Shown: in pieces, positions 9,083-24,127 of the stretch | How positions within the stretch are numbered: the first letter of the stretch is position 1 | How the letters are laid out: the number at the start of each line of letters is the position of its first letter | Assembly: GCA_021107435.1 (NCBI GenBank) | Contig: JAIOSV010000072.1 | Span: forward strand, 1-64,000 | Direction of reading: 5' to 3' | DNA from: Candidatus Sabulitectum sp. | Lineage (GTDB): Bacteria; Fermentibacterota; Fermentibacteria; Fermentibacterales; JCC-6 | Length of the DNA stretch: 64,000 nucleotides | Notes under the pieces: model-generated | The model's input: only the letters and a program-made list of their open reading frames with translations | The model's database searches: none | What the model was told of the DNA's origin: nothing | Program-made: the position numbers and the translations under genes

Positions 9083-10204
9083 GTGAAAACTGTCAAAGAG
9101 CAGCTTACTAAACTCAGGTTGCTCATCTCAACTAGAACCGTTTCCAGGGCCGGGAGTACATGGGCTATTTACAAAACAGATACGGATCCGACAACCATTT
9201 CCGAGAAGCTTGATCTTCTTGGCAAAATTTATTCCCTGACCGGAAAGGGAGGCGATATTGTCCTCCATTTTCCTACTGATCTCCGAACCAAAGAGGATGC
9301 TGCGGTTGTTTCCAAGTCTCTGAAAAAGAACAAACTCACCCCCACTACTGTAATGGCAGATCTTCACATTCCCCGAAAACGGGGAGTTCTTAACCACAGA
9401 CTCATGTACGGAACGCTAACCTCTCCATATCCTGAGATTCGTGTAGCATCTATAAATCAAATCCTGTCTGCCATGCAGTTTATGCGTGATATCAAATGCA
9501 GACAGATTGGTCTCTGGATCCCTGATGGTATTGACTCCCCCGGAGAAAAAAACTCTGTGGACATGCTTTTTGGAATACTCAAGGGACTCAGGCAGATCGG
9601 ATTGAAGATCCGAAAAAGCGAGAACCTGCTACTTGGTTTCAGCCCCTTCAATCCCTCTTTCTGTGCTACTGCGGTTCCTGACTGGGGTACAGCCAGCTGG
9701 CTTTGTCGGGAAACCGATCAGTCCTGCAGAATAATACTGGATACCGCTTCTCTACTCCCTGGAGAAAGCCTTGAGTCTGTAACTGTTTCTCTGCTCCACC
9801 AGAAAATGCTGGGTAGATTAACCCTGTCAGACAACAAACTGGGAATGGGTGCTATGCCGGCCGGTTCTCTTGATGCCGGAGCTCTGTTCCGTTTGTTCCT
9901 TAACCTTCTTATGGCTGAGGCAGCAGGTCTCTGCACTCTGGAAGACACCAGCATCGAGCTTAGAGTGGATTCAAGAGTTGGTTCCAGTATAGAAAATATC
10001 CTCACGGCTATTGAGAACACCGAATACGCTCTGGCAAGAGCTTCTCTTGTAAACCTTGATGAATTGAAAACGGCACAATCCAAGCCGGATACAACCGCAG
10101 CCAACAGAATTCTTCGGGATGCGTTTGTAACAGATGTCAGACCGGTGGTTGCCTCATGGAGAAAAGACAACAAGCTTCCGGAAGACCCAATAGCTGAGCT
10201 GTAG
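9083..10204 (+). CDS. Sugar isomerase-like TIM-barrel protein (L-rhamnose isomerase/RhaI-like, distant)
   Basis: Weak similarity: GSTWAIYKTDTDPTTISEKLDLLGKIYSLTG...VLHFPTDL...RQIGLWIPDGIDSPGE. Confidence 0.45.
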   Translation: MKTVKEQLTKLRLLISTRTVSRAGSTWAIYKTDTDPTTISEKLDLLGKIYSLTGKGGDIVLHFPTDLRTKEDAAVVSKSLKKNKLTPTTVMADLHIPRKRGVLNHRLMYGTLTSPYPEIRVASINQILSAMQFMRDIKCRQIGLWIPDGIDSPGEKNSVDMLFGILKGLRQIGLKIRKSENLLLGFSPFNPSFCATAVPDWGTASWLCRETDQSCRIILDTASLLPGESLESVTVSLLHQKMLGRLTLSDNKLGMGAMPAGSLDAGALFRLFLNLLMAEAAGLCTLEDTSIELRVDSRVGSSIENILTAIENTEYALARASLVNLDELKTAQSKPDTTAANRILRDAFVTDVRPVVASWRKDNKLPEDPIAEL

Positions 10205-10221: not shown

Positions 10222-10247
10222 GGGGCGGCCATGTGCCGCCCTTTTTT
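10222..10247 (+). terminator. Rho-independent terminator
   Basis: GGGCGGC-CATGT-GCCGCCC followed by TTTTTT. Confidence 0.85.
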
Positions 10248-10669
10248 CAGGGATTACACCTTTTACAGTAGTTACATATCCCCTGAGTGGAACCATCACC
10301 CCACTGGTACCAGGCATCCTCTATTTCTGAAGCAAGAAATGTCGGATCCAGCTCCAGAAAACCGCAGTGCCCAACCAGACAGACCACTGCGGGAAATCCT
10401 TCATACTGCCCTGCCAGACAAGCAATCTCGGAATATCCTGATGCATTCATTGAAATACAGTATAAAAATATCCGCGTATCTTCTCCGGTATCAATCATCT
10501 CTACAGCCTCAATAATTTCAAGTTCCATTGTTTTGTTTGCTGTGGAATCTCCGGACATTATCAGAAGAAAGCCGAAATCCGTGGGACCGGCAATTGCATC
10601 AAGCTCCGCAAAATTATCAATCGGAACAAAATTGCCGACTGACAATAGTATCAATAAAAAAGAAAACAA
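10247..10669 (-). CDS. Hypothetical secreted protein
   Basis: TTG start with a G-rich SD-like region upstream; hydrophobic N-terminus FSFLLILLSVG; Cys-rich end CNYCKRCNP; no recognised family. Confidence 0.45.
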   Translation of the reverse strand: MFSFLLILLSVGNFVPIDNFAELDAIAGPTDFGFLLIMSGDSTANKTMELEIIEAVEMIDTGEDTRIFLYCISMNASGYSEIACLAGQYEGFPAVVCLVGHCGFLELDPTFLASEIEDAWYQWGDGSTQGICNYCKRCNP

Positions 10670-10719: not shown

Positions 10720-13185
10720 ATGTTTATTCTAGCACTTCTGCTCATTCAGGGTTCCCTGCCTCGTTATGAGGTTACGGTTGATTCTATTTATCTGGAACAG
10801 TTGTCTGCCGATCCTCCTCCGGCAGACCTTGTAGTTCCGGCCTCTGTCTACTTCGAAGGCGTTTCGGGTGACTGCTCTCTCTCTCTCCGGGGAGGTACAA
10901 GCCTCGGGTGTGTAAAAAAAAGCTGGCACATAGAAGTCACCGACCCCTGCCTGTTCCCCTGCGGAGGTCACATTCTTTTAAACGCTCAGTTCCGCGATGC
11001 CTCTCTTATGAGAAACTCTCTGGGTCTTTACATCACCAGAGAACTGGGCTTTCCCGCTCCCGAAACAGAGTTTGTAACTTTCTCCATCAACAATGAGAAC
11101 AAGGGAGTTTACGAGCGTGTGGAAAGAATTGACAGGCTTTTCTATGAAAGGAACGGATTCTCTTTCGGCCCTCTGTTCAAGAATATTGATACCATGGGAC
11201 GACTTTCTCACCACCTCTCCGACACTACAGGACTGACAGGTTACGAGCCGAAAATCGACAGCTCTCCTTATGAAACTCAACTTCTTGAACTGATAGAATA
11301 CTGCTTCAGAGAAGATGTTTCCTCTCTTGAAGTGAACGAAGTTCTTGCTGCCTTTGCCGTACATGTCGCCATTGGCGACAATGACGGCATCATAAAGAAC
11401 TTCTACCTTCACAGAAGTGATGATGTCTGGCACTACTACCCCTGGGACAGAGATGCAACATTCGGAAACTCATGGAGGGGTGTGTATGACGGCGACTGGG
11501 TAACCAGAGCGCATCTGGCTGACATAGGCTATTTCGGCGCAACCCGGGGAATCCTTTCAATGCCGGAAAACATGGAAAAATTCAACAACCTTCTCGCGCA
11601 GGCCAGACAGATTTTCGAAGACGACCTTCCACAAATGACAGACTCGATCCGACTCTTAATCAGAGAGGACCTAGGTTCTGACCCCTACTACGAATACAGT
11701 GTTTCCCAGTTTGACTCTCTCTGTAATGTTATTATCAATGATATTGAAGACAGGGCGATCTTCCTTGCTGGAATTTCTCTGATGGATGAAATCCCCGGAA
11801 TAGAAGGACTCTCTATTTCATCCTGTCTGGATATGGAGTCAACGGTTGAGGTTGAACTCTCTCTGAACGGGGGAGATCATACCAATGTGGCATGTGTGGT
11901 TTCCTTTGATGGGCAGAAGGAACAATGGTATTACATGGAAGCCGACAGGTATGACGATGATTCATGGACTCTTGAGATTCCAATCCCTTCAGAAACATAC
12001 AGTGTTCACATGGTCTTTGGCTCATTTGGCTCTCATGATGTACTTCCTGTATTTTTCCCTTCCTGGGGTATGAGAGGATATCAACAACGGCCGGAGCCCA
12101 CCCCTTCAGCCCGCGTAGCCCTGGCTGATCTTTCTCCGAACCTTCTCTTTCCCGGAACTCCTGTGTGGTGCGGCGAGAATCTCTGGGTTCTTCCTGTAAC
12201 AAACACTGCTGCTGAATCACAGGATCTTTCTCTATGCCGTTTTTCTCTGGGAGAGCCCACGGGTAATGTATTCCTGGCAGAATCCATACTTGTTGCGCCC
12301 GGTGAAACCTTTTACCTTTCAAACTCCTCAGAGAGAGCAGAAGCTCTTTACGGGGGATTCAGCATATATGGTGATGCCGGTACGTCATATCCAACAGCAA
12401 CCACTCTTGAACTTTTTGATCCTTCCTGGAACTCTATGTACACATGGCAGATCAGCAACGGTGACTCCCTTCCAGATAATCCAGGCAACCTGATTCCAAG
12501 CGAAATCAGCGCAGGTGGGGATCGTGACTGGATTGAGCTGTACAACTACTCGGAAAGCGATGCAGATCTTTCTCTGTGGTACTTCATGGATTCAGAGAAA
12601 AATGTCTCTCTGATTCCTGACGGCACAACCATTTCTCCCGGTGGATTGCTGCTTACGGCGGCAGATCCCGATTTTTTCGAACAGAGTACCTGCACCGTAG
12701 TCCCTCTTAATCTTGGCCTTAATCCAGAAGAAGATTCATTATTCCTGTATTCCAGACTGGGAGACCGGGAATTCTGTGTAGCATGGACTGATCTTTGGCC
12801 AATGGAGGAAACAGGCATAATGTATCTGGCCTCTCCTCACGTTTCTGTCACAATTCCGGGGAACTGGGAAACCGCTGTACCCCCGGGAACTCCCGGTGAA
12901 GCCAATCCCGGCTGGTCTCTGAACACAAATTACACCAGTATCTCCCTTGCATCGGAAAACCCGGGAAACGGCTCTTTCAGTTTTCACTACAAAACCTCTG
13001 CCATCCCGGCAGAAGCCATCCTTTACGATCTTGCGGGAAGAGTCATAGCCACGATTGATCTACCCGGCAGTTATGAGGGAGAAGTTCTGGCTGATTTCAG
13101 CAGCACCCTTTCCAATGGTGTCTATATTTTGTATTTAAGGTCTTCTGCGGGTTCAGCATCCACCCGCCTGACAGTTTTGAATTAG
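10720..13185 (+). CDS. CotH kinase family protein with lamin-tail-like region and C-terminal sorting domain
   Basis: LRGGTSLGCVKKSWHIEV, MRNSLGLYITRELGFPAPET, NNENKGVYERVERID, YYPWDRDATFGNSW; tail 'LYDLAGRVIATI...NGVYILYLRS...RLTVLN'. Confidence 0.88.
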   Translation: MFILALLLIQGSLPRYEVTVDSIYLEQLSADPPPADLVVPASVYFEGVSGDCSLSLRGGTSLGCVKKSWHIEVTDPCLFPCGGHILLNAQFRDASLMRNSLGLYITRELGFPAPETEFVTFSINNENKGVYERVERIDRLFYERNGFSFGPLFKNIDTMGRLSHHLSDTTGLTGYEPKIDSSPYETQLLELIEYCFREDVSSLEVNEVLAAFAVHVAIGDNDGIIKNFYLHRSDDVWHYYPWDRDATFGNSWRGVYDGDWVTRAHLADIGYFGATRGILSMPENMEKFNNLLAQARQIFEDDLPQMTDSIRLLIREDLGSDPYYEYSVSQFDSLCNVIINDIEDRAIFLAGISLMDEIPGIEGLSISSCLDMESTVEVELSLNGGDHTNVACVVSFDGQKEQWYYMEADRYDDDSWTLEIPIPSETYSVHMVFGSFGSHDVLPVFFPSWGMRGYQQRPEPTPSARVALADLSPNLLFPGTPVWCGENLWVLPVTNTAAESQDLSLCRFSLGEPTGNVFLAESILVAPGETFYLSNSSERAEALYGGFSIYGDAGTSYPTATTLELFDPSWNSMYTWQISNGDSLPDNPGNLIPSEISAGGDRDWIELYNYSESDADLSLWYFMDSEKNVSLIPDGTTISPGGLLLTAADPDFFEQSTCTVVPLNLGLNPEEDSLFLYSRLGDREFCVAWTDLWPMEETGIMYLASPHVSVTIPGNWETAVPPGTPGEANPGWSLNTNYTSISLASENPGNGSFSFHYKTSAIPAEAILYDLAGRVIATIDLPGSYEGEVLADFSSTLSNGVYILYLRSSAGSASTRLTVLN

Positions 13186-13195
13186 GGGGTTAACA

Positions 13196-14275
13196 ATGTT
13201 CTACAGGGTTCTTATTGTTTTTCTTCTTATGGCACAGGGAGCCATGGCAGACATTGATGTTGAAAACAACTTCTCTGAGAAGTTCATGCTCGGTGGATAC
13301 ATTGATGCCGGATTCTCAGAATTGGGTTACTACAATGCTGTTCCCTCCAGGGAGTTTTCTATTCGCCGTTCCGGTTTTGAACTCAATGCCGAATTTGCGG
13401 AAACACTTAAGGCAGAACTAAAGGTTGAAGTCCGTCCTGATGATATTTTCCTGAAAAATGCCTTTATCCGCTGGGATCCGGCACCGTGGTCAAGGGCACG
13501 AGCAGGACAATTTAAAAGAGAAACTCTTCTTGGAGGTAATCTGAGCTTCTGGAATCTCAACATGCTTGACAGACCTCTCGTGTACGATCTTTGTGAAAAT
13601 CTCACATATGCCGGCAGAGACCTTGGCTTTGACCTGCGCATTGACCTTCCCAGCTTCAGTGGAGTTGAGCTAAGAGGAACAGCAGGCGTGTTTAACGGTG
13701 ATGAACGAGCAGAGGAAAGAACAGATAATGAGCTCCTCTACACCTTCAGGGGAGAAATAAAAATTCCTTCAATTGATCTCACTCTGGGGGCTTCTGCGGC
13801 ATCCCACAGGCAAGGTGAAGAAAATTCCATTGAACCCTCCGGATACGCTGTAAGTGCCAGACAAAATGCGTTTTCCGCAGACATTTCTCTGGATTTCGAA
13901 ATTTCCAACTGGTATGATGTCTCTTTCGCGTCCGAAATGAGTACCGGAGACAACTGGAAAAATGTTGATGTTCTCGCAGGGGAGACCGCTCCCGAGTTCT
14001 TGGGTTACTGGGGGACATTCACCGCCTTCTATCATCCTTGGAATGTGCAAGGAATCAAGACAATTTCCTTCACCGCAAGCTATGATAAGTTAACTGCAAA
14101 TACTGATCTGGACAACGAGCACAGCCGAATGTCAATCATCGGGGCTGTTTACCCATCCGATAACCTCAGATTGAGATTCGGTGGTATACTAAACAGAATT
14201 TCAAGCATTCAATCAGGCATTTTCACCGAAGATAAATACACGGATTTCATTGCAGAGGTGGGGCTTAGGTTTTGA
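13196..14275 (+). CDS. Outer-membrane porin, phosphate-selective porin O/P-like
   Basis: Signal peptide; FMLGGYIDAGF...FSIRRSGFELNAEF...KNAFIRWDPAPWSRARAGQFKRE; C-terminal FIAEVGLRF. Confidence 0.75.
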   Translation: MFYRVLIVFLLMAQGAMADIDVENNFSEKFMLGGYIDAGFSELGYYNAVPSREFSIRRSGFELNAEFAETLKAELKVEVRPDDIFLKNAFIRWDPAPWSRARAGQFKRETLLGGNLSFWNLNMLDRPLVYDLCENLTYAGRDLGFDLRIDLPSFSGVELRGTAGVFNGDERAEERTDNELLYTFRGEIKIPSIDLTLGASAASHRQGEENSIEPSGYAVSARQNAFSADISLDFEISNWYDVSFASEMSTGDNWKNVDVLAGETAPEFLGYWGTFTAFYHPWNVQGIKTISFTASYDKLTANTDLDNEHSRMSIIGAVYPSDNLRLRFGGILNRISSIQSGIFTEDKYTDFIAEVGLRF

Positions 14276-15066
14276 TGGACCGAATTCCCGAGAATCTTCA
14301 TTTCTTCAGGTACGAATTCAAATACATTCTTGACAGTAACCGGCTGTCAAGGGTTGCAGAGGTCCTCGACAACCATCTGTCCAGAGATAAACATTGTGGA
14401 GAAAACGGGGATTACCCCATAAGAAGTGTTTACTTTGACTCTCCGGATATGCGGTGGTTCCACGAGAAGCGAAATGGCATTGAAAAAAGATTCAAATACC
14501 GCCTGCGTACCTATTCTCACCGGGATACCGGGTTTTCCTGTCCCCTCTATCTTGAGTTAAAAGGCAGGGACGGAAGCCTTGTTGTAAAACACAGAGTCAG
14601 GCTGCCGATTGAAGAATTCACATGCGGGATTGGAGGGGGAGCAAGCTGGTTGCGCGAACTTCTTTATGAGACGGAACCCGGGAACAGTGTAGCAGAAAGA
14701 TTTATTGCCCAGTCATTCAGATACCGTCTGGCCCCCAGCGTTATTACCGATTACAACAGGGCAGCATGGGAAGACCACACCAACCCTGATTTCAGAGCAA
14801 CCATTGATACTGCTTCTACCGCATGGCGTACTTCATGGGACGGGTTGCCCGGAGGAATCCCTGTGCAGATAATACCCGGTGGTGGTATTGTAGAGATAAA
14901 GTTCAGATACAGAATTCCGTTCTGGTTTCAGAGGCTTGTCCGGGAAATGGATCTCATCAGGATATCCTTCTCAAAGTTTCAAAGGGCAGTTGAGGCGGTT
15001 TATCTGGATCATGATGGAACACGGCTTAACCGCCTGATCGAGAGGAGAATCGCTTGTCTGCGCTGA
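14272..15066 (+). CDS. VTC-domain polyphosphate polymerase-like protein
   Basis: RYEFKYILD...RSVYFDSPDMRWFHEKRNGIEKRFKYRLRTY...YLELKGRDGSLVVKHRVRL...VEIKFRYRIPFW. Confidence 0.87.
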   Translation: MMDRIPENLHFFRYEFKYILDSNRLSRVAEVLDNHLSRDKHCGENGDYPIRSVYFDSPDMRWFHEKRNGIEKRFKYRLRTYSHRDTGFSCPLYLELKGRDGSLVVKHRVRLPIEEFTCGIGGGASWLRELLYETEPGNSVAERFIAQSFRYRLAPSVITDYNRAAWEDHTNPDFRATIDTASTAWRTSWDGLPGGIPVQIIPGGGIVEIKFRYRIPFWFQRLVREMDLIRISFSKFQRAVEAVYLDHDGTRLNRLIERRIACLR

Positions 15067-15746
15067 CCCAATGGTTGAACACTACCAGTGATGTACTGGG
15101 TTACAGTCCCGGAGATCTTATTATTAATCTTCTCCTGTCGTTGATTGCGGGACTTATTATTGGAATAGTATACAAGGCTACACACAGGGGTCTTACATAT
15201 TCGCAGAACTTTGTGGTTACTCTGGTTCTTATGTGCATAACAGTCAGCGCCGTGATGATGGTTATCGGCAGCAACCTTGCCAGAGCTTTCGCTCTGGTGG
15301 GTGCTCTGACCATCGTCAGGTTTAGAACGGTGATTAAGGATACCCGGGATACCGCATTCGTTTTCTTTGCTCTCACAGAAGGTATAGCCTCGGGAACAGG
15401 CAACTATCTTCTAACTGCTATTTCAACAGCATTCATCAGTGGAGTTGCAATTCTCCTGTACAAAACCAATTTTGGCGCCTACATGAGAAGCGAGTATGTA
15501 ATAAGATTCCGGTTTGATCGTGATTCGGGAATTGAAGCTGTGTATGCGAAATTGATCAACGAAAAGACATCCAGATCGGCACTCATACACATCGAGCCCT
15601 CAGACAATGGTCGCTATCTTATACTCTCTTACGATATTACTCTGAAAAGAGGCGTAACTGCCTCCAGCCTGGTCTCCGCCATTGAGAAAACAGCAGGGCT
15701 GGACAGAGTAAGCCTGGTGAGTTCGATGGAAGACAGCGAATTTTAG
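15054..15746 (+). CDS. DUF4956 domain-containing membrane protein
   Basis: N-terminal TM helices; LARAFALVGALTIVRFRTVIKDTRDTAFVFFALTEGIASG. Confidence 0.87.
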   Translation: MSALTQWLNTTSDVLGYSPGDLIINLLLSLIAGLIIGIVYKATHRGLTYSQNFVVTLVLMCITVSAVMMVIGSNLARAFALVGALTIVRFRTVIKDTRDTAFVFFALTEGIASGTGNYLLTAISTAFISGVAILLYKTNFGAYMRSEYVIRFRFDRDSGIEAVYAKLINEKTSRSALIHIEPSDNGRYLILSYDITLKRGVTASSLVSAIEKTAGLDRVSLVSSMEDSEF

Positions 15747-15832
15747 CATTCTTCCTGCTTTTTCATACCTGTAGTGCAGACCTGAAGTCTTCTTCGCGGA
15801 TACGAAGTAGTCTTTAACCCGTTTCTTCCGTA

Positions 15833-15861
15833 TTGACAAAACAGATTTTTCACCATATTCT
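15833..15861 (+). promoter_or_regulatory. Sigma70-type promoter upstream of the second cotH gene
   Basis: TTGACA (15833-15838), 17-nt spacer, TATTCT (15856-15861). Confidence 0.55.
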
Positions 15862-15978
15862 ATTAAATGTAGCTATATGATTGTTTTGAACGCAAATAAA
15901 TCTATTGTTTTTTAATACCCTCCGCTCCTTTTGGAGATTTTGCGATTAGTATACTCATTGATCTATTGAGGGGGATTC

Positions 15979-18456
15979 ATGTATTTCTTGTTCAGAACTA
16001 TGCTTTTACTAAGTCATCTGTGTGTTCTGAACTCATATCATTTGGAAATAGATCCGGCTCTGCTGGACAGTCTGTATTCAAATCCATATGCTGACTGCCA
16101 ACTTCCGGCCTTCATAGAAACCGGGACTGGTTCCTGTAGCTGCATAGCTGGATTCAGGGGCAACACATCTCTGGGCTACCCCAAAAAAAGCTGGAAGATT
16201 GAATTGTTGGATCATTCTATATTGAATACCTCTCATATTCTTCTTGATGCCCAGTACAATGATTTCTCTATGATGCGGAATGCGCTTGGCCTTTATTTAA
16301 CAAGAATACTGGGCCGACCCGCACCGCTGACTGAACATGTAGAACTATATATAAATGAAGAATATTACGGCGTTTATACCCGGGTTGAAAGAATTGATCA
16401 GTATTTCTACAATAGAAATTCTCTTGGTGATGGCCCTCTTTTCAAGGCTGCATACCATGTGGCAAGATTCGCCTGGCAACCTGCCGATACTATTGGAACA
16501 GCTGGTTTTGAACCGAGAAGAGGAAGCGAGGAGTCTTTGCCGCTGCTTCGACAACTTATCGATCAAATTAATCTGTATTCTCCTCTTTCAATTAATATCG
16601 ATGATTATCTTGCATATATAGCAGTCTCTGTGGCAATTTCAGATAAAGATGCAATATCCAAAAACTACTATCTGTTTCTCCCGCCGGAGAGAATATGGCG
16701 ATTTTTCCCGTGGGATCGGGACACTTCATTCGGCAATACAGGGTCAGGGGAATACGACTCACTATGGACTGAGTCGAGTCAGGTATATTGTTTCGACAAA
16801 CCAGCCCTTAATTCAAGACTTCTTGTGCAGGAAAATTACAGAGATTTGTTTAATGAATACTTGCTTCAGACGGGAAATTTTATGGCAGATGAACTGCCAT
16901 TCGTTATTGACTCCATTTACTATGAAATCCGTGAAAGTGTTTACTCTGACCCGCTAAAGCGAGGTACAAATAGCGATTTCGATCAAGCTGTAGCTGTTCT
17001 CAGAGGAGCAGTTATTGAACGCGGACAGTTTCTCCCGGAAATCTCTGGGTTAATTAAGGCCCTTAATGTGGAATATATTAGCCTTTCTGAGTGGGATTTT
17101 GGATCATACGCTTCTTCTGATTCTGTTACCGTTACAATTGGATTCTCGGAACCTGCTGCTTGGACTTTTCTCCATAGCTGGACCGATGGCATGTCGGTAA
17201 GAATTCTGGAGATGAATAAGGATGATATCAATGGATATACATGGAGTCTCTCCGTTAATTTCCCGGCAGATTATGAGCATTTGCATTTATCAGTAACATA
17301 TGTTGCCAAGGTCGGTTCTGTGCCCGGTATTTCCTCCTTCTCTTATCCACTGTATGGCTCATCACATCCATTCAGGCGTCTTTGTGCCCCTACAGCAAGG
17401 CGCAGTTCTGAACATCTGAATCCTGATTTTCTTGAAATTCTATCTCCGGTAAGGTATACTCCATTTCTCTGGTGCATCCCGATAGTCAACACATCAGATA
17501 TAACCCAGGATATTTCTTTTTGCGGTTTCCAGACAGGAGTTCCACCTGCGCGACTTTTCGCCGGCGCAGACATACTAATCATGCCTGGAGACACTGTGTT
17601 TCTGACCAACAACCATGAGATGCTGGAAGTTCTTCTTCCCGGGAAAATTGTCCTGGGTGATTTAGTTACTGATTCTCCGGCAAACACACAACTTGTTTTT
17701 CTTTACCCTTCATGGGAAACTGCCATTGACATAACCCTGGGAAATGAGGTTTCTTTTTACCGGACAGGAGCAGTACTTAACGAGCTCATGGCCATGAACG
17801 ACAGTACAATCGCAGATAACTACGGAGAATATGATGACTGGCTTGAATTAGCAAATATCGGGCCGGACAACATAAATCTTTCAGGGTATTTCCTTACTGA
17901 TGATGTCAAGAATCCTTTCAAATTCGCCTTTCCTGATACCGTAATAAAGCCTGGTGACTATTTTATTGTTTGGACTGATGGCGATCCTGAACAGGGGTCA
18001 ATGCATGCTGAATTCAACATGAGTTCTGAGGGGGAGAATATCTTCCTTTTATACTCTCTGTTTCTAGTTGATGAAATTGAATTTCCAGCTCTTGAAGGAG
18101 ATGCAAGTTATGGGAGGTGGCCAGATACTTTGGGTGAGTGGAATATTCTTGCAATTCCAACTCCTGGAACACCTAACGAGGGGGGGCCTGGCGGCGAAAC
18201 CCCGGAAAAGCTCAGCATACAGGCTCCAAACCCATTTCTCAACTGTGGTATAATCACAATCCGTGGACGACCGGGATTGTTCAGACTCAATGTATATGAC
18301 TTAAGCGGCAGGCTGGTTAATCATCTGTTTGAGGGAGAAATTATCTCTACAGGGTCTTTGGAATGGGATGTAACGTCTCTCCCCGCTGGAATTTACTTCC
18401 TGAAACTTACTTCCCGGGGAGAAACTGTTGTACAGAAAATTACAGTTATCCGGTAA
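15979..18456 (+). CDS. Second CotH kinase family protein with lamin-tail-like region and C-terminal sorting domain
   Basis: FRGNTSLGYPKKSWKIEL, MRNALGLYLTRILGRPAPLTE, FFPWDRDTSFGNTG; tail 'VYDLSGRLVNHLFEG...AGIYFLKLTSRGETVVQKITVIR'. Confidence 0.88.
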   Translation: MYFLFRTMLLLSHLCVLNSYHLEIDPALLDSLYSNPYADCQLPAFIETGTGSCSCIAGFRGNTSLGYPKKSWKIELLDHSILNTSHILLDAQYNDFSMMRNALGLYLTRILGRPAPLTEHVELYINEEYYGVYTRVERIDQYFYNRNSLGDGPLFKAAYHVARFAWQPADTIGTAGFEPRRGSEESLPLLRQLIDQINLYSPLSINIDDYLAYIAVSVAISDKDAISKNYYLFLPPERIWRFFPWDRDTSFGNTGSGEYDSLWTESSQVYCFDKPALNSRLLVQENYRDLFNEYLLQTGNFMADELPFVIDSIYYEIRESVYSDPLKRGTNSDFDQAVAVLRGAVIERGQFLPEISGLIKALNVEYISLSEWDFGSYASSDSVTVTIGFSEPAAWTFLHSWTDGMSVRILEMNKDDINGYTWSLSVNFPADYEHLHLSVTYVAKVGSVPGISSFSYPLYGSSHPFRRLCAPTARRSSEHLNPDFLEILSPVRYTPFLWCIPIVNTSDITQDISFCGFQTGVPPARLFAGADILIMPGDTVFLTNNHEMLEVLLPGKIVLGDLVTDSPANTQLVFLYPSWETAIDITLGNEVSFYRTGAVLNELMAMNDSTIADNYGEYDDWLELANIGPDNINLSGYFLTDDVKNPFKFAFPDTVIKPGDYFIVWTDGDPEQGSMHAEFNMSSEGENIFLLYSLFLVDEIEFPALEGDASYGRWPDTLGEWNILAIPTPGTPNEGGPGGETPEKLSIQAPNPFLNCGIITIRGRPGLFRLNVYDLSGRLVNHLFEGEIISTGSLEWDVTSLPAGIYFLKLTSRGETVVQKITVIR

Positions 18457-18495: not shown

Positions 18496-19083
18496 TCAAT
18501 CGGAGATGCTGTTGATTGCTCCGGGGGTTCCCCAGCAAACTGCATCGCCGCCTTTATCCGGCGTTGGATTGGAATAGTCATCTGATGGTTGCCAGTTGGT
18601 TTCATCATTAGGTCCAGCCGGGTCAATTCTTTCAAGAGACGCGCCATCTCCGTCGGCAGATGAAGGTTCTGTTCCGTTTGCTCCCCAGCTCTGGTCATAG
18701 CGAAGAGACTCCATAACAGTACCGTTTTCGCTGTACAGAATTATTTCGTCTGTTGAGTTTCTGAGCCTTGTCCACTCTCCACTCCATGGAATCAACCGGA
18801 TCTCTGTTCCGTATGCGGCCTTGAAAGAAAGATCATTGGCACAGACGACTCCGTAGCTGTCCGGGGCAAGAAGGTAGTGTCCAAGAAATACCTGATTGTT
18901 CCCGTCACTGATCATCATTCCGGCAATGTTAATCGCTTCAGAGGAAGAGTTATAAATTTCGATCCATTCCAGGTGTTCATCAAGACCAAGTGTGCTTCCG
19001 TCTGGATTATACATAACTTCATTCAGAACTATTGTTCCGGGTACCTGAGAAAGAACTGCTGTCAAAACAAGAAAATACGTCAT
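18496..19083 (-). CDS. Lamin tail domain-containing secreted protein
   Basis: IVLNEVMYNPDGSTLGLDEHLEWIEIYNSSSEAINIAGMMISDG...ASLERIDP. Confidence 0.82.
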   Translation of the reverse strand: MTYFLVLTAVLSQVPGTIVLNEVMYNPDGSTLGLDEHLEWIEIYNSSSEAINIAGMMISDGNNQVFLGHYLLAPDSYGVVCANDLSFKAAYGTEIRLIPWSGEWTRLRNSTDEIILYSENGTVMESLRYDQSWGANGTEPSSADGDGASLERIDPAGPNDETNWQPSDDYSNPTPDKGGDAVCWGTPGAINSISD

Positions 19084-19731: not shown

Positions 19732-20307
19732 CTAAAGGGCTTTACCCCTTCTGAAAGCTTCTTTGTTAACTTCAAGAGCCTTTGGAGGCACTCTTTCTTC
19801 AATGGCCTTGAACCAGTTCTCCTCGGATATCTCCGGAAGGTGTCTTGATGCAGCACCAAGAAGAATGATGTTCACCACTCTGATATTCCCAAGTTCTCTT
19901 GCAATATCAACTACGGGAATCATAAGATTAGGAATCTTCATGTCATCGATGACCTTCTCCACGTCAGGATACACTGCTGAACCCGTGTTAACCGTCATGG
20001 GCTCTATTACAAGATCACAGGTAATGAGCTGTCCTGTTGGAGATAGATAACTGGCCCATCTGAGACCTTCCATTTTTTCCAGTGCCAGCACCAGATCCGC
20101 AGCGCCCTTTTCCACGAGAACGCTGTTCACTCTGTCGCCAAACCTCACATGGCTGGAAACCGAGCCTCCTCTCTGAGCCATTCCGTGAACTTCACTCTTC
20201 TTCACTTCAAAACCGGAACGCCATGCCGCGCTGCACAGAACCTCGCTGGCCATGAGAATACCCTGTCCGCCGGTTCCACAGATTATGACGTTTTTTACCT
20301 TGCTCAT
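19732..20307 (-). CDS. iorB: Indolepyruvate ferredoxin oxidoreductase subunit beta
   Basis: NVIICGTGGQGILMASEVL...KKSEVHGMAQRGGSVSSHVRFG. Confidence 0.92.
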   Translation of the reverse strand: MSKVKNVIICGTGGQGILMASEVLCSAAWRSGFEVKKSEVHGMAQRGGSVSSHVRFGDRVNSVLVEKGAADLVLALEKMEGLRWASYLSPTGQLITCDLVIEPMTVNTGSAVYPDVEKVIDDMKIPNLMIPVVDIARELGNIRVVNIILLGAASRHLPEISEENWFKAIEERVPPKALEVNKEAFRRGKAL

Positions 20308-22097
20308 TACACCACCCCCTCAAGATCTTTTGACAGCGCGTCTCTGGGACACACCTGAACACAGAGGTTGCAGTTGGGCCAGCAGAGCATCTCATTGATA
20401 ATCGGGATCTTTTCCTCTGCGTCCCAGCTGATAGCAGGACAGCCCAGTTTCACGCACAGTTTGCAGTGTACACATTTTTCAGGATCGTGTATTGCTACCG
20501 TCTTGCGCTTTGGTTTGTACTGCATAATACAGGGTCTTTTTGTAATGATGACACTTAACTCGTCCCTGTCGAACTCTTCCGTGAAAGCCCTCTTCATCTC
20601 GGGAAGGTCGTGTGGATCCACCACCCGTACATGCTTCACTCCACAGGCGAGAACCAGCTTCTCAAGGTCAAGAGCAGGAGCAGGCTGGCCTCTGAGGTTT
20701 TTTCCTGTAGTCGGGTTTTCCTGGCCGCCTGTCATCGCGGTAAGGCTGTTGTCCATTATCATTACGGTACCGGTATTTCCGTTGTAAACCATATCTATAA
20801 GACCGGTTATCCCGGAGTGGACAAAGGTCGACTCTCCTATGGCACTGACCAGTTTGGGCATTTTGTCTCTGCCAACAGCCTTTTCAATACCAGCCAGAAC
20901 ACCAATGGCAGCACCCATGCAGACCACGGTTTCAAGGGCATTGTAAGGAGGCATGAGACCTAAGGTGTAACAGCCGATATCACCTGTAGAACTGGCCTTC
21001 ATCTTTGAAAGAATATGGAAGGCTCCTCTGTGCGGACAGCCTGCACAGAGCGTTGGCGGTCTTCCCGGAAGTGCAACTTCTCCAAATGTCAGAGGCAGGT
21101 TCTCTCCGTCTTTGATGCCTTTTCTCACAAGTTCCGGATTAAGCTCTCCCTCTACAGACATCAGTTCGCTACCTTTTCCGTCAACAAGGAATCGGGATCT
21201 GATTCTTTCTTCGAGATAGGGCTCTCCCTCTTCAACAAAAATAACTTTGTCAACCTGGTCAAGGAATTTTTTTATCAGCTTCCATGGAAGGGGATTTGTC
21301 ATTCCCAGCTTAAGAACACTTGCGTCAGGAGATACTTCTTTCACATACTGATAACTGATACCGCTGGTGATGATACCAATTGATTTGTCGCCCATCTCAA
21401 TTCTGTTCAGCGGGCTGTCACAACCCCATTCTTCAAGTGCTTTGAGCCTTGCTTCAATCCTTGAGTGCATTTTTCTGGCATTGGCGGGAATGGGTACTCT
21501 TTTGGCAATATTCTTCGTGTAACCCTTTACCGGAATTTCAACACGGGAACCGACTTCTACAATGCTTTTCGAGTGACATATCCTTGTTGTTACCCTGAGC
21601 ATTACAGGGGTATCAAACCTCTCGCTGATCTCGTACGCAATTCCTGTAAAATCCCTGGCTTCCTGACTGTCGGATGGTTCAAAAATGACAACCTTCGCCG
21701 CTCTACCCATGAGTCTGTTGTCCTGCTCGTTCTGTGATGAATGCACTCCGGGATCATCGGCACTGACAATTACTATCCCGCCAGTGGCTCCTATGTAGCT
21801 TAAAGTGAAAAATGGATCCGCAGCCACGTTAAGACCAACATGCTTCATTGTTGTAATAACCCTGGCTCCTCCGAAAGAAGCCCCTGCAACAACTTCCATT
21901 CCCACTTTTTCATTAGGCGCCCACTGGGCATCAATCTCCGGGTATTCCTTTCCAATGGTTTCCATAATTTCGGTTGATGGTGTTCCCGGATAAGAGCTGG
22001 CAAAGTGTACACCGTGTTCCCATGCGCCCCTTGCTATCGCCTCGTTTCCCGACAGGAACAATTTCCCGGAATTAACTTCGTTGAGTTTCTTCCTCAT
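20307..22097 (-). CDS. iorA: Indolepyruvate ferredoxin oxidoreductase subunit alpha
   Basis: LFLSGNEAIARGAWEHGVHFASSYPGTPSTEI; TLCAGCPHRGAF; TPP-binding GDIGCYTLG; C-terminal ferredoxin-like Cys clusters. Confidence 0.94.
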   Translation of the reverse strand: MRKKLNEVNSGKLFLSGNEAIARGAWEHGVHFASSYPGTPSTEIMETIGKEYPEIDAQWAPNEKVGMEVVAGASFGGARVITTMKHVGLNVAADPFFTLSYIGATGGIVIVSADDPGVHSSQNEQDNRLMGRAAKVVIFEPSDSQEARDFTGIAYEISERFDTPVMLRVTTRICHSKSIVEVGSRVEIPVKGYTKNIAKRVPIPANARKMHSRIEARLKALEEWGCDSPLNRIEMGDKSIGIITSGISYQYVKEVSPDASVLKLGMTNPLPWKLIKKFLDQVDKVIFVEEGEPYLEERIRSRFLVDGKGSELMSVEGELNPELVRKGIKDGENLPLTFGEVALPGRPPTLCAGCPHRGAFHILSKMKASSTGDIGCYTLGLMPPYNALETVVCMGAAIGVLAGIEKAVGRDKMPKLVSAIGESTFVHSGITGLIDMVYNGNTGTVMIMDNSLTAMTGGQENPTTGKNLRGQPAPALDLEKLVLACGVKHVRVVDPHDLPEMKRAFTEEFDRDELSVIITKRPCIMQYKPKRKTVAIHDPEKCVHCKLCVKLGCPAISWDAEEKIPIINEMLCWPNCNLCVQVCPRDALSKDLEGVV

Positions 22098-22118
22098 TAT
22101 CTACCTTTCTTCCTGTTT

Positions 22119-23195
22119 TTACCTGTATTCTTTCTCTTCTTCAATTTTATCCATTACCCTTAAAACGCCCCGAACAAGAGCCTCAAGTTCTGCTTCACCG
22201 GGAAAGACAAGAACCTTCCCAAGGTAGGAAAGGTATTGTGTCAGAAGATCTGTTACCCAGGAGTTATATGCCATGCCTCCTGTTATGACAACCGCATCCA
22301 CTTCACCGCTTAGAGCAGCAGCCATGGCTCCGGCCTCCTTAGCCATCTGATAAATCATTGCCCGGAGTACAAGGTCGGCCTCTTCATCACCATTCTCAAT
22401 CCTTTTTCTGATCTTACCTACATGCTCTTCTTGAAGATAGGCGAATACTCCCCCTTTTTTGAGAAGCATTTTCTTCAGTTCCCCGGCATTGTACTTTCCA
22501 CTGAGACACAGTTTCATAAGCCCTGTCATGGGAAGACCACCAGTTCGTGTTGAACTGAATGGTCCATCATCATTTGCATTGTTGGTGTCTATCATCCTGC
22601 CTTTGCGGAGGGCATTAACACTGACTCCGCTTCCAAGATGCATAACAACCATATTCAGTTGATCCATCGGTTTGCCAAGATTCTCCGCGGCTTTGTAGGC
22701 AACCATCCTTATGTTGAGCGCATGGCTGAGGCTTACCCTGGGAAGAAGAGGATGTCCGCTGAGCCTGGCTACATCAATCATTTCATCTACACATACGGGA
22801 TCAACGAAGTAAGCCGGAACAGATGCTATACCCGCAATAGCCCAGGCAATAAGCGCGCCGAGATTTGAGGGGTGATCAGCCTGCAGAGTTGAACCGTCTT
22901 TGATATCGTCAAGCAGTTGTGTGTTTACCCTGTATGTTCCGCTTGCCAGAGGTTTGAATGTTCCTCCCCTGCCTACAACCGCAGAGAGATCTTCCAGCTT
23001 GTAACCTTTCTCCTTGAGAACTCCCATAACAATGTCACGCCTGAAGTCCATCTGATCGAATGTTGTTGGAAATGGCTCGAGATCAGATGGATCGTGATGA
23101 ATGTTCTCTTCAAATACCAGTTCGTCATTGGCGTAAAGACCTGCCTTAGTGGAAGTACCTCCGGGATTAATCGCCAGTATCAGTCTTTTCTCCAT
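22119..23195 (-). CDS. buk: Butyrate kinase
   Basis: ILAINPGGTSTKAGLY...VVMHLGSGVSVNALRKGRMIDTNNANDDGPFSSTRTGGLP. Confidence 0.95.
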   Translation of the reverse strand: MEKRLILAINPGGTSTKAGLYANDELVFEENIHHDPSDLEPFPTTFDQMDFRRDIVMGVLKEKGYKLEDLSAVVGRGGTFKPLASGTYRVNTQLLDDIKDGSTLQADHPSNLGALIAWAIAGIASVPAYFVDPVCVDEMIDVARLSGHPLLPRVSLSHALNIRMVAYKAAENLGKPMDQLNMVVMHLGSGVSVNALRKGRMIDTNNANDDGPFSSTRTGGLPMTGLMKLCLSGKYNAGELKKMLLKKGGVFAYLQEEHVGKIRKRIENGDEEADLVLRAMIYQMAKEAGAMAAALSGEVDAVVITGGMAYNSWVTDLLTQYLSYLGKVLVFPGEAELEALVRGVLRVMDKIEEEKEYR

Positions 23196-24127
23196 TATTT
23201 ACTCCCTGCCACTACAGCTCCCAGGGCAAGGCTGTTCAACTTTGTGGAAGCTGTATCAGACCGGCTGAGCATTACAATGGGTGCCGCCGCACCGGCGATT
23301 AGTCCGCCTACCTCTGTGTTGGTCATATACATGAATCCTTTGGCGAAAATGTTGCCGCACGCAATGTCGGGAGTGACTAGAACATTTGCCTTACCCGCAA
23401 CAGGGCCTGTCATCTTCTTGATAACCGCAGCTTCCGGATCCATTGCTCCATCCACAGCAACAGGACCCGCTACATCAGCTCCTTCAATTCCCTCTTCCGC
23501 AATCTGTGCCCAGAGAACAGTTTCAGGCATCTTTTCATTAGCGACCTCTACCGCTGCAAGAAAAGCAATTCTGGCCCTGTCCGCACCAAGTTTCAACATG
23601 ATATCAGCAGCATTGGAAGCTATCTGTTTTGCTTCTTCCTTATCGGGACAGATGTTCATTCCACCATCGGTAATGGCGACAAGCCTGTCCTGCCTGGGAG
23701 CATGGACAACTGCCACATGGCTGAGAATTCTTCCTGTTCGGAGACCAACTTCTTTGTTCAGAACAGCCTTTAAAAATATTGATGTTTTTATTAGTCCCTT
23801 CATGAGCATATTGGCCTCACCTGTGCTTACAAAACTCACAGCCTTCAGTGCTGCTTCTGTTGAATCCTCGCAGTTTATAACAGTGATGTTATCTGGAAGA
23901 TTCCTTTCGAGTACAGCAAGGGATTTTTTTACTTCTTCTTCTGAGCCTACAATTATGCTTCCGGCAAGCCTGGAGTCAGAAGCTTCTATAAGAGCTTTAA
24001 GAGAAGAAACATCATGACCCATGGGAACAGCTACAATAGAGCCCGCGAGAGATCTGGCGGCCTTTCTAATCTCAGAAAAATTGGTCAGCAATGGAAACCT
24101 CCGCTTTCTATGGGATTTACCCTGCAC
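23195..24127 (-). CDS. ptb: Phosphate butyryltransferase
   Basis: ANMLMKGLIKTSIFLKAVLNKEVGLRTGRILSHVAV...VLVTPDIACGNIFAKGFMY. Confidence 0.93.
   Translation of the reverse strand: MQGKSHRKRRFPLLTNFSEIRKAARSLAGSIVAVPMGHDVSSLKALIEASDSRLAGSIIVGSEEEVKKSLAVLERNLPDNITVINCEDSTEAALKAVSFVSTGEANMLMKGLIKTSIFLKAVLNKEVGLRTGRILSHVAVVHAPRQDRLVAITDGGMNICPDKEEAKQIASNAADIMLKLGADRARIAFLAAVEVANEKMPETVLWAQIAEEGIEGADVAGPVAVDGAMDPEAAVIKKMTGPVAGKANVLVTPDIACGNIFAKGFMYMTNTEVGGLIAGAAAPIVMLSRSDTASTKLNSLALGAVVAGSK

Follow-up and report, generated by a model that had tools for sequence, protein, structure and literature searches.

Genes for CotH-family kinases, VTC-domain proteins and DUF4956 membrane proteins are known to accompany Gram-positive Pel operons as accessory genes (PMC7112168), and their tendency to occur together had also been noted in a sequence-only reading of the DNA studied here. 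Two questions are at issue: what role the three genes have as a set, and where secreted bacterial kinases find a phosphoryl donor outside the cytosol. Both are raised by a locus in a Candidatus Sabulitectum contig, of which the whole stretch analysed (64,000 nucleotides) is called the window. Here cotH, VTC and DUF4956 are contiguous, apart from the gene of a predicted outer-membrane porin that separates the first two. Literature searches gave nothing on CotH together with a porin and a polyphosphate polymerase.

The five open reading frames named in the sequence-only reading were all found in the ORF listing, on the forward strand, and its domain calls were matched in HMM searches for CotH, VTC and DUF4956 (Table 1). 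The genes are closely packed, as had been noted from their overlaps: 10 bp separate CotH1 and the porin, the porin stop and the VTC start share a TGATG (spacing −1), and VTC and DUF4956 overlap by 13 bp. For VTC the ATG at 14275 forms this TGATG, while the ORF caller lists a TTG at 14272. From its sequence, the stretch from 10720 to 15746 reads as a tight, translationally coupled operon CotH1-porin-VTC-DUF4956; CotH2 starts 232 bp beyond DUF4956. Scans for promoters and terminators performed no better than on shuffled sequence. The genome is a Fermentibacterota MAG of 3.38 Mb, 92% complete, with eight CotH genes and one VTC gene. The convergent lamin-tail protein is a neighbour of the module in most home-family loci examined and is possibly associated with it.

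Table 1. Predicted genes of the locus, with positions in the window and the evidence for each assignment.
Feature	Positions	Strand	Evidence
CotH1	10720-13185	+	PF08757 4.6e-33, LTD 2e-9; genus-specific CotH lineage
OprP/OprO-superfamily outer-membrane beta-barrel ('porin')	13196-14275	+	orthologue profile and predicted fold
VTC-domain protein, Vtc4-like triphosphate tunnel, predicted polyphosphate polymerase	14275-15066	+	PF09359 2.4e-35
DUF4956 inner-membrane protein, C-terminal ACT/MgtC-C-like domain	15054-15746	+	PF16316 4.8e-13
CotH2	15979-18456	+	PF08757 9e-45, LTD 8e-12, Por_Secre_tail 8e-8
Small secreted lamin-tail-domain protein	18496-19083	-	PF00932 3.4e-15

The VTC protein scores 122.6 bits against PF09359 (cut-off 23), and a profile of 28 bacterial VTC sequences recovers the yeast Vtc4 structure 3g3q at 2.5e-26. 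Residues K200, R264, R266, K281 and K294 of Vtc4 correspond to K17, R77, R79, K97 and K106 of the window protein (numbering of the 264-aa ORF) and are invariant in the 28 sequences. The polymerase-like identity proposed earlier is thus upheld at the level of the tunnel residues, and the completeness of the active site in all 28 aligned sequences suggests catalysis. The protein is a probable candidate for a polyphosphate (polyP) polymerase. It is also the only classical polymerase of this kind seen in the assembly, where the search covered PPK1 and found none, compared to 7 of 14 control genomes in which PPK1 was present. In the papers accessible to us no activity is reported for any bacterial VTC domain.

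Both CotH proteins score far above the PF08757 cut-off of 23.8 bits (CotH1 115.5, CotH2 154.0) and align to the CotH structure 5jd9 of the B. cereus/B. subtilis type (1e-23 and 1e-17, respectively). In CotH1 the motifs DGIIKNFYL (from residue 222) and PWDRD (from 241) are aligned with 5jd9, as are D224 and PWDRD244 in CotH2; the aspartates of D-x3-[KH]N and PWDxD are kept in both, so that a loss of catalytic residues in both copies can be dismissed. The lamin-tail-like regions that had been noticed on both kinases are confirmed as LTD matches (Table 1). The C-terminal T9SS-like tails, also claimed for both, hold for CotH2 (TIGR04183 of NCBIfam, 35.4 bits, cut-off 23) and not fully for CotH1, which at 21.6 bits is just below the cut-off. 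A gene of the SprA translocon family, the T9SS gene that was searched for, is present in the genome (SprA_N 4.4e-14) and, together with the tail of CotH2, agrees with the predicted export of the kinases. The domains support the prediction that CotH1 and CotH2 are secreted CotH-family kinases. A literature search gave nothing on Fermentibacteria with type IX secretion.

The two kinases differ in their history. Most genomes of the genus lack CotH2, and one of them (G012) retains a remnant of 115 residues. A tree of CotH domains, in which long-branched forks are uncertain, places CotH2 together with the module kinases of genera g2 and g3 (support 98/97) and CotH1 with other kinases of its own genus (support 100/100). 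Because of this grouping and the absence of CotH2 from most of the genus, CotH1 has probably replaced CotH2 as the module kinase. A designed pair of kinases was considered and rejected, since CotH2 is the phylogenetically old module kinase and is absent or a remnant in most of the genus; two CotH genes do bracket the cluster at this locus, as first described, but the second does not belong to the conserved unit. Six further CotH genes lie on contigs C8, C10, C61, C63, C84 and C92 of the genome (L001, L002, L004, L005, L007 and L008); the kinase L007 belongs to the CotH1 lineage.

The identity of the porin is less direct. The window protein itself has no Pfam match at E-values up to 0.1, nor up to 1. 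Nine of the 16 members of the porin alignment match Porin_O_P (PF07396, best 5.7e-8), the home porins L048 and L045 score above the cut-off, and the porin profile finds OprP and OprO as its best matches in the PDB, at E ~0.005. An AlphaFold (AF2) model from the 16-sequence alignment is an outer-membrane porin-like barrel with pLDDT 81. In Foldseek it matches OprP at E 1e-11 and TMq 0.65, the highest TMq among the 50 matches listed; by E-value PorB ranks first among the matches listed. Orthologue profiles and the modelled fold thus place the predicted protein in the OprP/OprO (Porin_O_P) superfamily. Phosphate specificity is another matter. OprP binds phosphate through lysines K121 and K126 of loop L3, and at these positions (numbering checked) all 16 home porins have other residues. 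A phosphate-specific porin was rejected on this ground, and the 'phosphate capture' put forward in the sequence-only reading is left without support at the residue level. A second O/P-type porin of the genome (L099, C92:169902-170915, reverse strand, PF07396 9.5e-5) lies away from VTC.

The AF2 model of DUF4956 (pLDDT 83) combines hydrophobic N-terminal helices with an alpha/beta C-terminal domain. Foldseek matched ACT domains and the C-terminal domain of MgtC, none below E 0.001. A fold relationship to a known channel was considered and dropped, the matches being confined to this ACT/MgtC-like tail. The motif AF[AGS]LVGA[LM][ST]I[IV]RFRT is common to the DUF4956 set of diderms. DUF4956 is the probable membrane partner of VTC.

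Conservation in the family of the organism (the home family) shows which parts belong together. VTC is present in 30 of 36 family genomes and DUF4956 in the same 30; both are absent together from the other six. By coordinates, 29 of the 30 have a porin orthologue immediately before VTC, at full length or as the part present on the contig where it is fragmented or cut, and in the thirtieth genome (G002) the contig ends at the porin, of which the C-terminus can be read upstream of VTC. The six genomes that lack VTC have no porin match or one at the level of a paralogue (two of them, at E 1e-11 and 1e-17). Identity between porins of different genera falls to ~30%, and most loci keep the order CotH-porin-VTC-DUF4956; genus g5 differs in having its CotH genes after DUF4956. 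The synteny of porin, VTC and DUF4956 on which the first reading depended is therefore conserved (30/30), and because it persists down to ~30% porin identity the arrangement is not due to chance. VTC, DUF4956 and the porin are co-inherited in the family, nearly always with a secreted kinase adjacent. In the window and the home-family loci, a non-exhaustive inspection of adjacent genes recognised no polysaccharide synthase, and among the adjacent genes of the window no Pel-like ones were recognised by eye or annotation.

Outside the home family, a trimmed DUF4956 profile was searched against 84,980 genomes, which gave 80 named loci. With monoderms and diderms separated by record titles, VTC or DUF4956 had CotH nearby in 24 of 32 monoderm loci, 21 of 44 other diderm loci and all four home loci. 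The cotH-VTC-DUF4956 set thus occurs in many phyla far outside Pel loci, which corrects the published statement that DUF4956-VTC-CotH synteny was not found outside them (PMC12345266).

The diderm modules often carry an envelope conduit, of a type that differs by lineage, and the monoderm loci are without one. Porins with PF07396 matches stand beside the module in two Gammaproteobacteria (L127, in the order porin, VTC, DUF4956, 4.7e-67; L151, 5.7e-11), a member of the Deltaproteobacteria (L138, 2.9e-6), a member of the Polyangiaceae (L145, 9.6e-6) and Ca. Stahlbacteria (L191, 5.5e-16). All eight sampled myxobacteria-like loci of family f31 (G069 group; L085, L204-L209, L223) have a porin in the cluster. 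In seven of these the order is porin, VTC, a protein of ~568 aa and DUF4956, the 568-aa ORF not being resolved in one; in L223 CotH is followed by VTC, the porin and, further on, DUF4956. In L210, which belongs to a different family, the genes run porin, CotH, VTC, DUF4956. Among the myxobacteria-like porins, those of L223 and L210 pass the Pfam cut-off of Porin_O_P, L204 is just below it and L209 has no match; the profile of home-family porins recognises each of the four, with E-values from 6e-5 to 8e-16. In 25 loci, from Bacteroidota, Ignavibacteria, KSB1, Marinimicrobia, Zixibacteria and others, the gene directly upstream of VTC encodes an HlyD-like adaptor, one homologous family by BLAST clustering; among the members scanned, three are above the Pfam HlyD cut-off and others below. 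An HlyD gene follows DUF4956 in four myxobacteria-like loci. A TolC-like gene is directly upstream of VTC in three loci (L095, OEP 7e-6; L107 and L119 by similarity). The 32 monoderm loci have no porin (0/32) and two weak HlyD matches, 3-5 genes away, and about 20 of the 44 non-home diderm loci lack a porin, HlyD or TolC-like conduit within four genes; in these counts over the 80 loci the profiles were partly built from the same proteins and their E-values are not independent; independence holds for the Pfam results and for the porin profile made from home sequences only. By a rough estimate, which assumes 1-5 such porins per genome and a span of about nine genes, chance would place 0.1-0.6 porins near the module in the 44 diderm loci, compared to five observed with Pfam support (P for at least five adjacent porins 1e-7 to 3e-4).

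Two further proteins were seen inside these clusters. The ~568-aa protein between VTC and DUF4956 was found in L085, L204-L206, L208 and L209 of the G069 group; in L085 it has a thymidylate kinase-like start (FIDFEGIDGSGKTT) followed by a repeat-rich region. In L138, L139 and L145 (Deltaproteobacteria, Aminicenantes and Polyangiaceae) a shared family of 192-204 aa with one hydrophobic segment lies between CotH and VTC; the L138 copy has no Pfam match.

Comparison with known systems defines what is particular to the window. It has the same three adjacent families as the Gram-positive Pel set, including a secreted CotH and a DUF4956-like protein with a C-terminal ACT domain. Unlike that set, the window module has no recognised link to Pel or another polysaccharide synthase, an outer-membrane barrel is built into its operon, and its CotH proteins carry LTD and T9SS tails. 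With yeast VTC it shares a catalytic domain with the Vtc4 active-site residues and the presence of a membrane partner. However, the catalytic and membrane parts are separate proteins, the SPX domain is absent, and no match links DUF4956 to the transmembrane domain of Vtc. The porin resembles OprP and OprO in profile and predicted barrel but lacks K121 and K126, is shorter (359 aa compared to ~411-429 aa), and its gene is fixed to a polyP-polymerase operon. The kinase domain and catalytic aspartates are those of the spore-coat CotH kinases (5jd9/5jda), whereas the window proteins carry LTD and T9SS tails and are predicted to be exported to the surface of a diderm that does not form spores.

In view of the above, we tentatively favour, at somewhat less than even confidence, a diderm CotH-VTC-DUF4956 module with a built-in outer-membrane conduit that delivers polyP or a related phosphopolymer outward. 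The observed domains, active-site residues, tight operon, co-inheritance and recurring conduits form its basis. VTC would make polyP, or a related phosphopolymer, in the cytosol, a step supported by its intact active site; the later steps we infer. DUF4956 probably acts as a channel through which the chain crosses the inner membrane, comparable to the VTC transmembrane subunits of yeast, where synthesis is coupled to passage of polyP through the membrane domain of VTC itself (PMC10657179), or alternatively it may control this passage. The OprP/O-type barrel could then be the outer-membrane passage for the polyanion, or for products of its breakdown, a role that HlyD adaptors or TolC-like proteins may fill in other phyla. 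The CotH kinases would leave the cell by Sec and a T9SS-like route and act at the surface, where they may either phosphorylate proteins or glycans or fix the phosphopolymer to them. That conduits recur beside the module in two-membrane bacteria suggests that the polymer, or the modification that it supports, is delivered to the surface, and export is favoured over import by the HlyD and TolC-like parts that other diderms have at this position. A further step, that polyP export across the envelope supplies the CotH kinases with a phosphoryl donor or with a polymer to attach so that no extracellular ATP is needed, is in our opinion quite improbable; if it were true, surface phosphorylation would be served by a phosphate-rich polymer instead of extracellular ATP.

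The main rival to export is an accessory module for a surface polymer. Here CotH would be the kinase of a surface protein or of a polysaccharide that is exported, phosphate would be sensed or buffered by VTC and DUF4956, which would regulate that process, and the conduit would carry the glycan or protein outward and not polyP. We take it seriously while considering it unlikely on balance. The pairing of the same three genes with a polysaccharide synthase in Gram-positive Pel operons (PMC7112168) and a C. perfringens locus in which a putative chitin synthase has VTC and CotH genes nearby (PMC2879425) fit this explanation. So do the mutants of SIR_1592-1594 in S. intermedius, where deletion of the DUF4956-like gene raised the Pel signal, deletion of cotH lowered it, and both cut aggregation (PMC12345266). 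Deletion of VTC (SIR_1593) had no reported effect on aggregation or Pel in the same study, which, like the silence of the accessible papers on activity of bacterial VTC domains, counts against the export model, and the ACT/MgtC-like tail of DUF4956 suits regulation as well. Yet a polysaccharide synthase was recognised neither beside the window module nor in the home-family loci, and a VTC active site complete in 28 of 28 sequences suggests catalysis.

The remaining explanations concern the porin. In phosphate scavenging it would import phosphate or pyrophosphate, which VTC would store as polyP and CotH would use at the surface. The superfamily of the barrel, by profile and fold, and the richness of the cluster in phosphate-related proteins argue for this, and the classical import of anions by O/P porins is a point against export. 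Nevertheless, we judge scavenging decidedly unlikely: the OprP lysines are not conserved in the home porins, the operon showed no sign of a Pst or phosphatase gene, and export parts, HlyD and TolC-like, occupy the same position elsewhere. The porin could also be a neutral neighbour, co-transcribed by chance. Roughly half of the non-home diderm loci are without a porin, and about 20 of the 44 are without any of the three conduits, which also weakens the export model; in addition, the position of the porin gene varies (before VTC, after DUF4956 or before CotH). A neutral porin is nonetheless highly improbable in view of its 30/30 retention to ~30% identity, its joint loss with VTC in the family, and a recurrence in several other phyla far above the chance expectation given above. 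For the outward-delivery model, different diderm conduits on the same synthase offer a specific and testable answer, namely that the product or its effect goes outward, and the myxobacteria-like genomes with porin-VTC-DUF4956 are tractable hosts in which bacterial polyP export could be studied.

The surroundings of the module in the window include several other genes. On the reverse strand, 10247-10669 encodes a secreted-looking protein of 140 aa with a CxxC-like 'NYCKRC' end and no Pfam match, which, at 68-75% identity, adjoins the module elsewhere in the genus too. The forward-strand gene at 9083-10204 encodes a divergent L-rhamnose isomerase-like protein (167.6 bits against TIGR02635, well under the cut-off of 531) and is kept upstream of the module in relatives. 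Downstream, four genes on the reverse strand (19732-24127) were identified by eye only, as two subunits of indolepyruvate ferredoxin oxidoreductase, a butyrate kinase-like protein and a phosphate acyltransferase-like protein.
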